Below, in pieces: positions 59,501 through 64,000 of a DNA stretch of 64,000 nt. The notes under the pieces were generated by a model. That model was given only the letters and a program-made list of their open reading frames with translations, was not told the origin of the DNA and did not search any database. Within the stretch, counting starts at the first letter, position 1; the number at the start of each line of letters is the position of its first letter. The position numbers were made by a program, and so were the translations under genes. Source of the DNA: Streptomyces sp. CBMA29. Lineage in GTDB: Bacteria; Actinomycetota; Actinomycetes; Streptomycetales; Streptomycetaceae. The stretch spans positions 1 to 64,000 of the forward strand of contig NZ_MECL01000179.1 in the NCBI RefSeq assembly GCF_014596445.1. The letters run 5' to 3'.

Positions 59501-59878
59501 ATGAGCGACCCCGGACTGCCGTCCCCCGACCCGAATCCGTACCCGTATCCCAGACCCGCCGACCTGCCGACGCCGCCATCGGCGCCTCCGTCCGCACCCG
59601 CGCCCGCGCCCGTCCCGGGTTCCGCGCAGGTGCACGCGCCCGGTCCGACGCCGTACCGCCACGTGGGCCTGATACCGAGCGCCGGGCCCGCGCGCGGGTG
59701 GGGGCTCGTCGTCGCCGCGGCGCCCCTGTTGCTGATCGCGCTGATCGCCCTCGTCGCCGGCTCGGCGCTGAACCCGACGAGCGGCCTCACCTCCGGTGCG
59801 CGGACCGGCGTCGGCTCCGTCCACGGCGCGCCCGCACACAGGGCCGCCGCCAACGCCCCCTTGAGAGCGGAGCGCTGA
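59501..59878 (+). CDS. Small Pro-rich single-pass membrane protein
   Basis: 125 residues from ATG 59501, preceded by GGAG. The first 60 residues are Pro/Tyr/Ala-rich and cytoplasmic in type. One helix at about 67-88 follows (WGLVVAAAPLLLIALIALVAG), then a short outside tail. No family recognised. It starts the operon and ends six bases before the 539-residue membrane protein, with which it may assemble. Confidence 0.7.
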   Translation: MSDPGLPSPDPNPYPYPRPADLPTPPSAPPSAPAPAPVPGSAQVHAPGPTPYRHVGLIPSAGPARGWGLVVAAAPLLLIALIALVAGSALNPTSGLTSGARTGVGSVHGAPAHRAAANAPLRAER

Positions 59879-59884
59879 GCCGCC

Positions 59885-61504
59885 ATGACCGTCACCCAGA
59901 CCCTGCTCCCGCACCCCGCCGAGCCCCCGCAGGCACCGCCGGTGTCCCGCGCGTACGCCCGTACGAAGGCGACCCGTCTGCTGTCGGCGGGCACGTACCT
60001 CGACCCCGTCTACCGCACCACCGTCATCAGGGAGTTGCTGCGCAACCGCTTCCGCGTGGTCGCGCCGTCCTACGGCTACGACAACGTGTCCGTCCTCGCG
60101 CACGCCCTCGCCGCCCGCCGACTGCGTCGCCTGCAACGGTGGTTGGGCGCCGGGTCGGTCGTCGCCGCGCTAATCCTGACCGCGAGCGGCGCGCTCGGTC
60201 CCGTCCTCGCCGTCCTGCTGGTGTTCTGGGCGCTGTGGGCGCTGGCGTACCTGCGCCGGATCGTGACCCTGAACATCCTGATGACGCGGCTGAAGGAGAC
60301 CGGCACCGACGGCGGTTTCGACGGGGCGTACCCGGCGAACGCGCGCCTGACCGAGACCATGATCCGCAAGATCGACCGGGAGCAGTCCGCCAGTGACAGC
60401 CTGGTCTTCTACGGCGGCTTCCGGCCGTTCGTCGGCGCGGGCGAACCGCTGCGCGACTGGGCGAACGCCCAACTCCTCATCGGCGCGAAGAAGTTACGGC
60501 TCAAGCCCAAGGACCACGAAGGGAAGCGGGACGTCGAGGGGACGGCGCCGGGTCTCGACACCGACGAGCGGGAGCCGCTCCTGCCGTTCACCGTCGACAA
60601 GATCACCGCATACGTCGGCGAGCGGATGGCCGCCGAACTGCGCGACGGCGCGAAGCCGGGCGAGCGCATCGAGGGCCTGGCCGTCGAGCGGCGCCGCTTC
60701 ACCACGGCGATCCGGACCAACGACCGCACCAGCGGCGAGGGTTGGTCCCGGCTGCCGGGTGTCGGCGACCTGCCGGACCTGCACTGGCGCGAGGACTACG
60801 ACTCGGCGCGCGAGTACCTCTGCGTGCGGATCGGCTCGTGGAACGAGGAGTTGGTGACCTCGATCTTCGTCGGCTTCGACCTCAAGGGGAACACGCTCCA
60901 CACCGAGTTCTACCCGTACGTCCTCGGGCCGCTCGTGGAGGACTTCCACCTGGTCGACCGGCTGCCGGAAGCCTTCGACGGGCGGCTGGCGGTGCGGGTG
61001 GCCTGGGACATGGTCAAGGCGACCCCGCGCTGGGGGTTCAGCCTGCTGCTGTCACCGCTGCGGCTGCTGCCCGAGCGCTTCCTGCCGTCGCCGCTGCGCT
61101 CGCTGGTCCGCCCCGGCCGCCGCGGCCCCAGCTCCATCCGGATCAGCGGGGGCGTCACCTCGGTCGACAGCAGCGAATTCCGCCTGGGGCGCTACGTGAC
61201 CAAGTCGGTCAACTGCGGTGCGCTGACCAGCGTGCGCGAGTTGGCGACGAACGACTACTACCACGCCTTCTTCCAGAAGTCCGACGCCGTGAAGTACACA
61301 CAGATCGTCGAGCGCCGTCTGCTGGAAATCATCCGCACGTTCCTGAACGACCACCATGTGGATCTCACCGACCACGACAGGGCGCAGAACAACATCCTCA
61401 ACTACGAGGACAAGAGCATGCACGTCTCCGGGGACAACAACAGGAATTTCGGCTACGAGTACGCGCCGGACAACGGCGGAACCGCGAACGGCCAGGGGGA
61501 TTGA
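59885..61504 (+). CDS. 539-residue membrane protein with C-terminal motif shared with the TIR-like protein
   Basis: A helical hairpin or long helix lies at about 88-122; the remaining about 400 residues are soluble and predicted cytoplasmic, with mixed alpha/beta content (YLCVRIGSWNEELVTSIFVG, LHTEFYPYVLGPLVEDFHL). No known family was recognised. Near the end (509-526) it carries DKSMHVSGDNNRNFGYEY, closely matching residues 9-26 of the TIR-like protein that begins only five bases downstream. It could be the sensor, or the platform that recruits or holds the TIR protein. Function unknown. Confidence 0.8.
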   Translation: MTVTQTLLPHPAEPPQAPPVSRAYARTKATRLLSAGTYLDPVYRTTVIRELLRNRFRVVAPSYGYDNVSVLAHALAARRLRRLQRWLGAGSVVAALILTASGALGPVLAVLLVFWALWALAYLRRIVTLNILMTRLKETGTDGGFDGAYPANARLTETMIRKIDREQSASDSLVFYGGFRPFVGAGEPLRDWANAQLLIGAKKLRLKPKDHEGKRDVEGTAPGLDTDEREPLLPFTVDKITAYVGERMAAELRDGAKPGERIEGLAVERRRFTTAIRTNDRTSGEGWSRLPGVGDLPDLHWREDYDSAREYLCVRIGSWNEELVTSIFVGFDLKGNTLHTEFYPYVLGPLVEDFHLVDRLPEAFDGRLAVRVAWDMVKATPRWGFSLLLSPLRLLPERFLPSPLRSLVRPGRRGPSSIRISGGVTSVDSSEFRLGRYVTKSVNCGALTSVRELATNDYYHAFFQKSDAVKYTQIVERRLLEIIRTFLNDHHVDLTDHDRAQNNILNYEDKSMHVSGDNNRNFGYEYAPDNGGTANGQGD

Positions 61505-61509
61505 GCGGT

Positions 61510-62211
61510 ATGGGCGACGAAATGGATCACCAGGACAAGCGCATGACCGTTTCCGGTTCCGGAAATGAGCACTTCGGGTACGAATACCGTCCTGTTCTGG
61601 CCGCCGCGCAGGAGACGACCACGGCCGGGACCGCGCGGCGGGACTCGTCGGAGCGGACGCCGGACGACGGCCTCCGCAGCCGTAACGTCTTCGTCGTGCA
61701 CGGCCGGGACGAGCAGGCGCGGCTCGCGATGTTCGGGCTGCTGCGGCGGCTCGACCTGCGCCCGCTGGAGTGGGAGGAGTTGGTGCGGGCGACCGGCAAG
61801 ACCTCGCCCTACATCGGTGAGGTGATCGCGAACGCGCCGTCGCTGGCGCGGGCCGCGCTCGTCCTGCTCACCCCGGACGACACCGCCAAGCTGCACCCCG
61901 AACTCCTCGGTGACTACGAGCGGGTGGACGAGGTGCAGTACACCGGGCAGCCCCGGCAGAACGTGCTGATCGAGCTGGGCATGGTGCTGATGGCGTACCG
62001 CGCGCGCACGGTCATCGTCGAGGTCGGCCGGCTGCGGCACGCCACCGACATCGAGGGCCTCAACGTCATCCGCTTCGACGGCTCCCAGTCGTCGCTGGAG
62101 AAGATCGTCGCCCGGCTGAAGGTGGCCGAGTGCCCGGTGGACGACAGCCGCTCCGACTGGCGCGACACGTCGTACTTCGAGAATCTGTCGGCCTATCGGC
62201 GGCTCGCCTGA
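61510..62211 (+). CDS. TIR-like nucleotide-binding protein (PF10137/Cap12-type), putative NADase
   Basis: 233 residues from ATG 61510. Residues 9-26 (DKRMTVSGSGNEHFGYEY) repeat the motif at the end of the upstream protein. The TIR-like domain covers about 57-195: VFVVHGRDEQARLAMF, IGEVIANAPSLARAALVLLT, and GQPRQNVLIELGMVL, with E155 in the position of the catalytic Glu of TIR NADases. PF10137 domains act in CBASS- and Pycsar-type defence by destroying NAD. Here the neighbour is a TM-macro protein, suggesting that it might instead make a nucleotide signal. Confidence 0.85.
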   Translation: MGDEMDHQDKRMTVSGSGNEHFGYEYRPVLAAAQETTTAGTARRDSSERTPDDGLRSRNVFVVHGRDEQARLAMFGLLRRLDLRPLEWEELVRATGKTSPYIGEVIANAPSLARAALVLLTPDDTAKLHPELLGDYERVDEVQYTGQPRQNVLIELGMVLMAYRARTVIVEVGRLRHATDIEGLNVIRFDGSQSSLEKIVARLKVAECPVDDSRSDWRDTSYFENLSAYRRLA

Positions 62212-62328: not shown

Positions 62329-63327
62329 TTATGCGCGCTCGACGCCCGACGCCAACGTCTGCAGGAACGCGGCCACTTCCGGCATGTTGACCCGCTCCAG
62401 GTCCGCGGCCCTGACCACCACCCGCAGCTCACGGCAGACCGCGCCCTCGCGGGACCTGGCGATGAACGACATCAGGATCAGCCGCAACAGGCTGTCCTGG
62501 TCGAGGTAGTCGAGACGGGAAAGACCCGAACCGACCAGCGGCATCGCCACCGCCTCCGGGCGCGCGTACCGACTCACCGTGTCCCAGAGCCGGTTGAGGC
62601 TGAACCAGAGGTCCTCCACGCTGGACGCGGCCACGTAGTCGTTGCCGATACGGCTGTACGCCGCCGCGAACGTCAGCCGCGGACGGGCGCCGAGGACCGC
62701 CACCGTACCGATCGGGTAGCGGTCCAGCTTGCCCAGCGGCTTGCGCGCCGGGTCCTCGCGGGCGACGGGCGTCACCGCGCCGAGCGCCGCGGCCAACTCG
62801 GCGTCCAGGCGCGGGAGGTCGCCGTCGTAGCGGCGGGCGAGCAACTGCCCCTGGACGCTGGCCTCGTTGATGACCAGGCCGCCCTCGGAAGCGGTGTCGA
62901 AGGTGTCGGTGAAGCCGATCACGAGATGCGCGGCCTGCTCGAACAGGTCGCCCTCCTCGACCACCACCGTCATGTCGGGGCGCCGGAACTCCTGCCGCAC
63001 GCGCGTGACCGGCCGGGCCCTGCCGATGCCCCACAGCACGCAGGCCGCCACCGACGCCGCGGTCACCGGGGCCGGATCGGGAAAGCTCTGGGGAAAGAGC
63101 TGCCCCACGAACTGGAGGACGGCGGATATTCCACCGAATGCCGCAATGGCATTGCGCACGAAGATCTGCCGGGCGCGCCGCGCCACGCGCAACCGTAAGC
63201 GAGCGCGGAGCCGGGTCCGTAACCGCGCGCGTAACCGCATGCGTAACCGCGCGCGCACGCGCATCCTGCGCCGCACCCCGGTGCGCGGGCGGGCCGGAAC
63301 CGGGCCTGTGGGATCAGCGGAACTCAT
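62329..63327 (-). CDS. Two-helix membrane protein with ThsA-type macro domain (DUF6430-like)
   Basis: 332 residues from ATG 63327. Residues 15-53 are 20 Arg in 39, in an R-x alternating pattern. Two helices follow (about 59-78 and 86-103), then a macro-like domain from about 118 (VVEEGDLFEQAAHLVIGFTD, GLVINEASVQGQLLARRY, AMPLVGSGLSRLDYLDQDSL). This is the architecture of the effector ThsA in type II Thoeris, where binding of an ADP-ribose-type signal made by a TIR protein is thought to trigger membrane damage. The gene faces the TIR-like gene tail to tail. Assignment to the DUF6430/ThsA-macro family is by eye. Confidence 0.78.
   Translation of the reverse strand: MSSADPTGPVPARPRTGVRRRMRVRARLRMRLRARLRTRLRARLRLRVARRARQIFVRNAIAAFGGISAVLQFVGQLFPQSFPDPAPVTAASVAACVLWGIGRARPVTRVRQEFRRPDMTVVVEEGDLFEQAAHLVIGFTDTFDTASEGGLVINEASVQGQLLARRYDGDLPRLDAELAAALGAVTPVAREDPARKPLGKLDRYPIGTVAVLGARPRLTFAAAYSRIGNDYVAASSVEDLWFSLNRLWDTVSRYARPEAVAMPLVGSGLSRLDYLDQDSLLRLILMSFIARSREGAVCRELRVVVRAADLERVNMPEVAAFLQTLASGVERA
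63184..63286. repeat. Short tandem repeats encoding the Arg-x-Arg tract
   Basis: Units related to CGTAACCGCGCG recur across the 5' part of the TM-macro gene and encode alternating Arg residues before the first membrane helix. Confidence 0.8.
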
Positions 63328-63409: not shown

Positions 63410-64000
63410 ATGACGCATGTTCGGATAAATGTGCTGGGGCCCGTACTGCTCGAAGTCGACGGTCTTCCGGTACGGCTGACACCGCTCACGACCCGGCTGC
63501 TGGTCCGGCTGGTGGCCGCCGAGGGCGAGGCCGTTCCCGTACGGCAACTGCGCCGCGATGTCTGGGGGCTGGCCGACGAGCCGCGGCATCAGGCGCAGCG
63601 CAACCGCAACGAGGTGCAAAAGCGGGTCCTGGAGCTGCGGCGCGCCCTCGATCCGGGTCAGGACGGGACGGCCGCCCGGCTGCTGCGGACCGAGCAGCAG
63701 GTCACCGTGGGCGGCGCGGAGACCGCGTACCGACTGGTGCCGCGCGCCGAGGAGTTGGACAGCGCGCGGTTCACGGCGGTCGTCGGCGAGGCGCTGCTGG
63801 CACCGCCCGCGACCGCGGCCCACCGGCTGGCCGAGGCGCTGGCCATGGTGCGCGGACGGCCGCTGGCCGAGGTCAACGGGGAGGCGTTCGCGGTCGACTT
63901 CGTCCGGCGGCTCACCGCGCTCCAGGACTCCGCCCGGCGCGGCCTGGTCCGCTCCCGCACCGAACTCGGCCGCCCCGATCTCGCCCTGCCGGTGGCCGAG
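63410..64000 (+). CDS. SARP/AfsR-type transcriptional regulator (3' end outside window)
   Basis: At least 197 residues from ATG 63410 (GGGGAAAG upstream); open to the window end. The N-terminal winged helix begins RINVLGPVLLEVDGLPVRL, then VRLVAAEGEAVPVRQLRRDVWG and NRNEVQKRVLELRRALD. A bacterial transcriptional activator (BTAD-like) helical domain follows. Activators of this class control antibiotic clusters, but some are local regulators. It is divergent from the TM-macro gene. Confidence 0.85.
   Translation, partial: MTHVRINVLGPVLLEVDGLPVRLTPLTTRLLVRLVAAEGEAVPVRQLRRDVWGLADEPRHQAQRNRNEVQKRVLELRRALDPGQDGTAARLLRTEQQVTVGGAETAYRLVPRAEELDSARFTAVVGEALLAPPATAAHRLAEALAMVRGRPLAEVNGEAFAVDFVRRLTALQDSARRGLVRSRTELGRPDLALPVAE

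Follow-up and report, generated by a model that had tools for sequence, protein, structure and literature searches.

Bacterial amyloid signalling sequences (BASS) occur in NLR/Bell gene pairs (Dyrka et al. 2020, as described in PMC7889193 and PMC8086366), and the amyloid signalosomes of fungi include NWD2/HET-S, PNT1/HELLP and PUASM with PNP_UDP (PMC9815663). A review of the field asks whether bacterial signalling amyloids also exist in NLR-independent pathways (PMC7889193). Here we describe a locus of Streptomyces sp. CBMA29, within a stretch of 64,000 nucleotides (contig NZ_MECL01000179.1, positions 1 to 64,000; the window), in which a membrane protein, M, ends in a short motif that reappears near the start of the TIR protein, T, encoded next to it. 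The two copies, hereafter tags, are matched within each locus and co-vary between lineages. We regard it as fairly probable that they are homotypic assembly tags, coupling M as a membrane sensor to T as its effector.

The M-T pair resembles BASS in that a short and diverse motif is common to the proteins of adjacent genes, a candidate receptor and a candidate effector, and is matched within the locus. Both are found in multicellular actinobacteria, and TIR effectors are reported with BASS too (PMC7889193, PMC8086366). Unlike BASS receptors, M has no NLR or NTPase domain (NACHT or NB-ARC), and the other genes of the block encode macro-domain and SARP-type proteins. The motif is N-terminal on the receptor and C-terminal on the effector in BASS, whereas it is C-terminal on M and N-terminal on its partners, which also include DUF5955-like, PNP and EAD1 proteins. 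Because of the missing NLR and the reversed polarity, we did not file M-T under BASS. In fungal signalosomes, too, the receptor and effector genes are clustered and share matched short motifs (PMC9815663), and PNP_UDP effectors occur in both, with the pairs of two distant M relatives (L104 and L114) being parallel to PNP_UDP/PUASM. Parallel fungal pairs operate without cross-seeding (PMC9815663), as the diverged M-T pairs are proposed to do. The fungal receptors are NLRs and carry the motif at the N-terminus (PMC9815663), whereas M is a bacterial protein with two transmembrane (TM) helices and a C-terminal tag. By analogy, the working principle of M-T would be that of BASS and fungal signalosomes, and the pairing may be likened to the prion-like tags that trigger immune cell death in fungi.

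M and T carry matched, co-varying tags

In the window, the M stop codon and the T start codon are separated by five bases, and the two tags agree in 12 of their 18 residues; the reading frames and positions (Table 1) are likewise those given by a sequence-only reading of this DNA. Aligned locally, the M tail and the T head score 78, as compared to a maximum of 34 over 200 shuffles of the head, and the match is far beyond chance. The pattern GxxNxxFGYEY occurs twice in the whole 8.5-Mb genome, in these two tags, and no third copy of the tag was found in the adjacent macro-domain proteins X and R or elsewhere in the genome. Over the aligned segment the tag DNA is 62% identical, and the same codon is used at 6 of the 12 identical residues, where 8.7 are expected from codon usage. 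The window pair is therefore not a recent local duplication, one of the three origins that the sequence-only reading had offered; the comparison of DNA identity it had proposed, with the synonymous differences that this revealed, indicates conservation at the protein level. The tags are rich in N, G, S and Q, with asparagine making up 22.6% of the M tags and 1.6% of the M core.

M was searched against 394 genomes of the window's family, and the surroundings of the matches were fetched. Fifty named loci were retrieved with T, from Actinacidiphila (the closest), Streptomyces, Kitasatospora, a Catenulispora metagenome-assembled genome and others. M and T are neighbors in constant order across the loci, and the T start overlaps the M stop by 4 bases in 36 of the 45 named loci. 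Matched motifs are present in all 46 loci that have both M and T, the window included; in none is the motif missing from both proteins or carried by only one, the outcome that the sequence-only reading had singled out as counting against it. The tags fall into about seven motif classes, as exemplified by the M/T pairs FGDNNNNSGTGNTMNTRTGG / YGDDNNNSGSGNTMNTRTGG, GDKASFGSGNVSYDNQGQ / GDKSNFGTGNVSYDNQGQ and NNSFVHGDNNTTNSGTQ / NNSFVTGNNNTTNSGTQ. The letters VSGxxNxxFGYEY, proposed earlier as a search pattern, are not a widespread tag; it is the pairing that is conserved, not the letters.

In 25 loci, the scores of matched M tails and T heads sum to 2573, and 20,000 random pairings reach 1644 at most. 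Among 38 non-redundant loci the mean score is 97 for matched and 46 for mismatched partners, and none of 20,000 permutations reached the observed value. When permuted within classes (20,000 each), it was reached by 0 permutations for FGY, 0 for NQSV and 101 for NSGTQ. On trees of the M core and the T core built without the tags, the seven classes correspond to six changes, located at the same places on both. In L045, whose T core is 88% identical to that of the window and is its sister on the tree, both tags have switched together and are now identical (SQNVSGSGHSNISYNNN in M and T), with synonymous differences remaining between the two copies. These comparisons argue that the M and T tags recognise each other specifically and co-vary.

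Table 1. Coordinates of the M-T block and of the tags within it
Feature	Position	Strand	Basis
Small proline-rich single-TM protein	59501-59878	+	Directly upstream of M
M, 539-aa membrane protein, proposed sensor/nucleator	59885-61504	+	Open reading frame, hydropathy, AlphaFold2 model
C-terminal tag of M, DKSMHVSGDNNRNFGYEY, residues 509-526	61409-61462	+	Within-locus match to T
T, 233-aa TIR protein, putative NADase effector or signal producer	61510-62211 (ATG start)	+	Pfam, PADLOC
N-terminal tag of T, DKRMTVSGSGNEHFGYEY, residues 9-26	61534-61587	+	Within-locus match to M
TIR domain of T, residues 59-190	61684-62079	+	Pfam
X, TM + macro protein of Thoeris ThsA type, convergent with T	62329-63327	-	Pfam, PADLOC
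R, SARP-type regulator with C-terminal ThsA_Macro	63410-64000, continuing to 64804 of the contig	+	Pfam

Relatives of M with other tagged partners

Searches with M, among them a class-level one covering 200 genomes, retrieved distant relatives (E down to 1e-8), one of which, L166, comes from another actinobacterial class. The relatives end in other tags, for example NQGIIQTGGVSNIGNQAVGQGA, and the next protein starts with the match, NQGVQQFGGVSNVGNQAVGSGA. Their tagged partners are DUF5955-like four-helix proteins, PNP_UDP_1 nucleosidases and an EAD1 protein, with the tag again N-terminal. For 14 DUF5955-like pairs the score sum is 928, as compared to a permutation maximum of 796. The DUF5955-like partner was modelled as a confident four-helix bundle with a disordered tag, and a comparison of this model with the PDB gave no meaningful match. 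In L104 and L114, the N-terminal tag of a nucleoside phosphorylase-type protein (PF01048) matches the C-terminal tag of the preceding M relative. The tagged partner in L096 has an EAD1 (effector-associated) domain, which connects these tags with the adaptor network known from bacterial conflict systems.

Homologues outside such pairs served as controls. Tagless M paralogues from several Streptomyces genomes (L107, L108 and L109), possibly an ancestral or a housekeeping form, lack a matched partner. TIR relatives that do not adjoin M (L159, L160, L162 and L164) carry no tag. The exception is L113, where a tag-like tail is present and a partner was not found. The M tail of L097 looks frameshifted.

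Domains of M and T and the Thoeris-like neighborhood

Hydropathy places two adjacent TM helices of M at about residues 87-121. M matched no known family above cut-off, in Pfam or elsewhere, and no NTPase in Pfam or NCBIfam, a Walker A motif was absent from the 41 M sequences searched, and plasmid and phage searches with M gave no match. In the AlphaFold2 model, the predicted local distance difference test score (pLDDT) is 79.5 and the soluble domain is confidently modelled; the last 30 residues (510-539), which hold nearly the whole tag, are below 50; the C-terminal tag is thus predicted to be disordered. A Foldseek search with M returned nothing below E 0.01. The small protein encoded directly upstream shows weak conservation at the equivalent place in about ten relatives, and its gene may be part of the M operon.

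T belongs to the CAP12-PCTIR_TIR family (PF10137, E 4.2e-27), and, as M lacks a Pfam family, the two proteins are otherwise unrelated, as the sequence-only reading had supposed. In PADLOC, T matches PDC-S35 (E 5.8e-20) as well as the CBASS (cyclic oligonucleotide-based antiphage signalling system) TIR effector and PycTIR models, and none of the ThsB models up to E 1. Upstream of the TIR domain, T holds just the tag and a variable linker. E155, within NVLIELG, is invariant across 18 orthologues and is likely the catalytic glutamate. A sequence search of solved structures with T gave no match. The TIR gene of L055 / L165 (Streptomyces capoamus) is broken across two frames, through either a frameshift or a sequencing error, and the tags are still matched.

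X matches ThsA_Macro (PF20016, E 5.2e-58) in Pfam and ThsA (E 3.3e-81) in PADLOC, and has a single TM-like segment by hydropathy. R (L083:1411-2805), which is divergent from X, combines a Trans_reg_C winged helix and BTAD (E 6.1e-7) with ThsA_Macro (E 7.9e-49), and may act as a transcription factor responding to an ADP-ribose signal made by the TIR protein. X lies on the opposite strand in 39 of the 45 named M-T loci, R is the downstream gene on the + strand in 42, and the whole block of M, T, X(-) and R is kept in 39. The other flanking genes scanned encode a peptidase M1, a mycothiol-S-transferase and a phosphoenolpyruvate mutase, and the upstream genes are metabolic; no CD-NTase or Pycsar cyclase was found among them.

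As in TM-macro Thoeris (PMC11204291), a TIR gene therefore stands beside a TM + macro protein of the ThsA family. Unlike in Thoeris, T is of the CAP12/Pycsar type without a ThsB match, and the block has an additional tagged M and an additional SARP-macro regulator. We call the block Thoeris-like because X falls within the definition of ThsA and T matches no ThsB model. T shares its TIR family (PF10137) with CBASS Cap12 and Pycsar PycTIR; unlike in those systems, the scanned flanks hold no nucleotide cyclase, and T lacks a sensor domain of the STING, SAVED or Pycsar kind.

Proposed coupling, alternatives and implications

Amyloid-type homotypic assembly is favored because the tags are identical and not complementary, rich in N, G, S and Q, disordered and terminal. 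Among the three options of the sequence-only reading, an assembly tag has by far the strongest support, and its assembly would probably be amyloid-like. Sequence establishes the matched pairing and its co-variation, the order of the genes and their domains, and models predict that the tags are disordered. In what would be a defence response, we infer that M senses an event at the membrane, whereupon its disordered tag would change state, probably to a beta-arch or amyloid-like oligomer, and template its N-terminal counterpart on T. Gathered in this way, the TIR domains would become active NADases and produce an ADP-ribose-type signal, or else deplete NAD; TIR enzymes are known to require self-association for their activity (PMC11204291). 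The signal would then act via X and R, with X clustering in the membrane to bring about cell arrest or death and R switching transcription. TM-macro ThsA is known to take ADP-ribose and adenine dinucleotides, products of TIR enzymes, as ligands on which it oligomerises (PMC11204291). The lineage-specific sequence of the tag would insulate each M-T pair from any other tagged pair that the cell contains.

Some observations weigh against this proposal. The tag has no match among library motifs. The fold match of M is weak: the PR10/START-like rows of VIA-align have Z 5-6 over ~120 residues (186-492), a similarity that is suggestive only. Since T is of the Cap12/PycTIR type and not a ThsB, X is linked to T by neighborhood only. 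Finally, over 25 loci, the codon is shared at 381 of 470 identical tag residues, as compared to 339 expected (standard deviation 8), so that DNA copying between the partners, modest and in some lineages, is likely.

The tags might also bind each other specifically without forming amyloid, through one-to-one contacts, beta-type or coiled, which would simply tether T to M. Co-variation, which reports recognition and not polymerisation, is consistent with such a tether, but the partners share the same sequence instead of complementary ones, as self-assembly expects. Given also the low-complexity N/G/S/Q composition and predicted disorder of the tags, and that TIR and TM-macro effectors work by clustering (PMC11204291), we consider a simple tether unlikely.

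Repeated local DNA copying, by gene conversion or segment duplication, could in turn keep the two ends alike without any function. The overall excess of shared codons speaks for it, and the sharing is strongest in L057, L062 and L068, where it extends to nearly all identical tag residues and suggests recent copying between the M and T genes. However, codon sharing is at, near or below expectation in the window, L045 (16 of 24 identical residues), L054 and L053, implying that tag identity is held at the protein level in these loci. The match moreover persists throughout one orthologue family, in about 45 loci, and in distant relatives with unrelated partners, and is limited to the termini; saturated synonymous sites strain the explanation further, leaving copying a slim prospect as the general cause. 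Least probable is the remaining option of the sequence-only reading, a common third molecule or protein that both tags bind and that differs between species: each change in the two tags would demand a parallel change in this partner, and the macro proteins carry no further copy of a motif that the genome holds just twice.

In the literature searched, which excluded subscription titles, we found no description of M, of the tag pairs or of the SARP-macro fusion. We tentatively suggest, with somewhat less confidence than for the M-T coupling itself, that M and its relatives represent a widespread, NLR-independent class of prion-like signalling in bacteria, in which two-TM sensors with their own insulating tags nucleate interchangeable effectors, and whose TIR version feeds a Thoeris-type circuit. 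If so, the effectors would comprise a TIR protein, a nucleosidase, a helical bundle and an EAD1 adaptor, and the circuit would be a second-messenger one that includes a macro-domain transcription factor. On a single non-NLR scaffold, the locus offers dozens of natural tag pairs of diverged sequence, for which homologues without a pair serve as controls, and thereby makes the question of NLR-independent amyloids directly testable by tag swaps. It may also show how certain bacterial TIR enzymes are activated, and suggests a path along which a TIR signal could reach transcription, via a macro-domain regulator.
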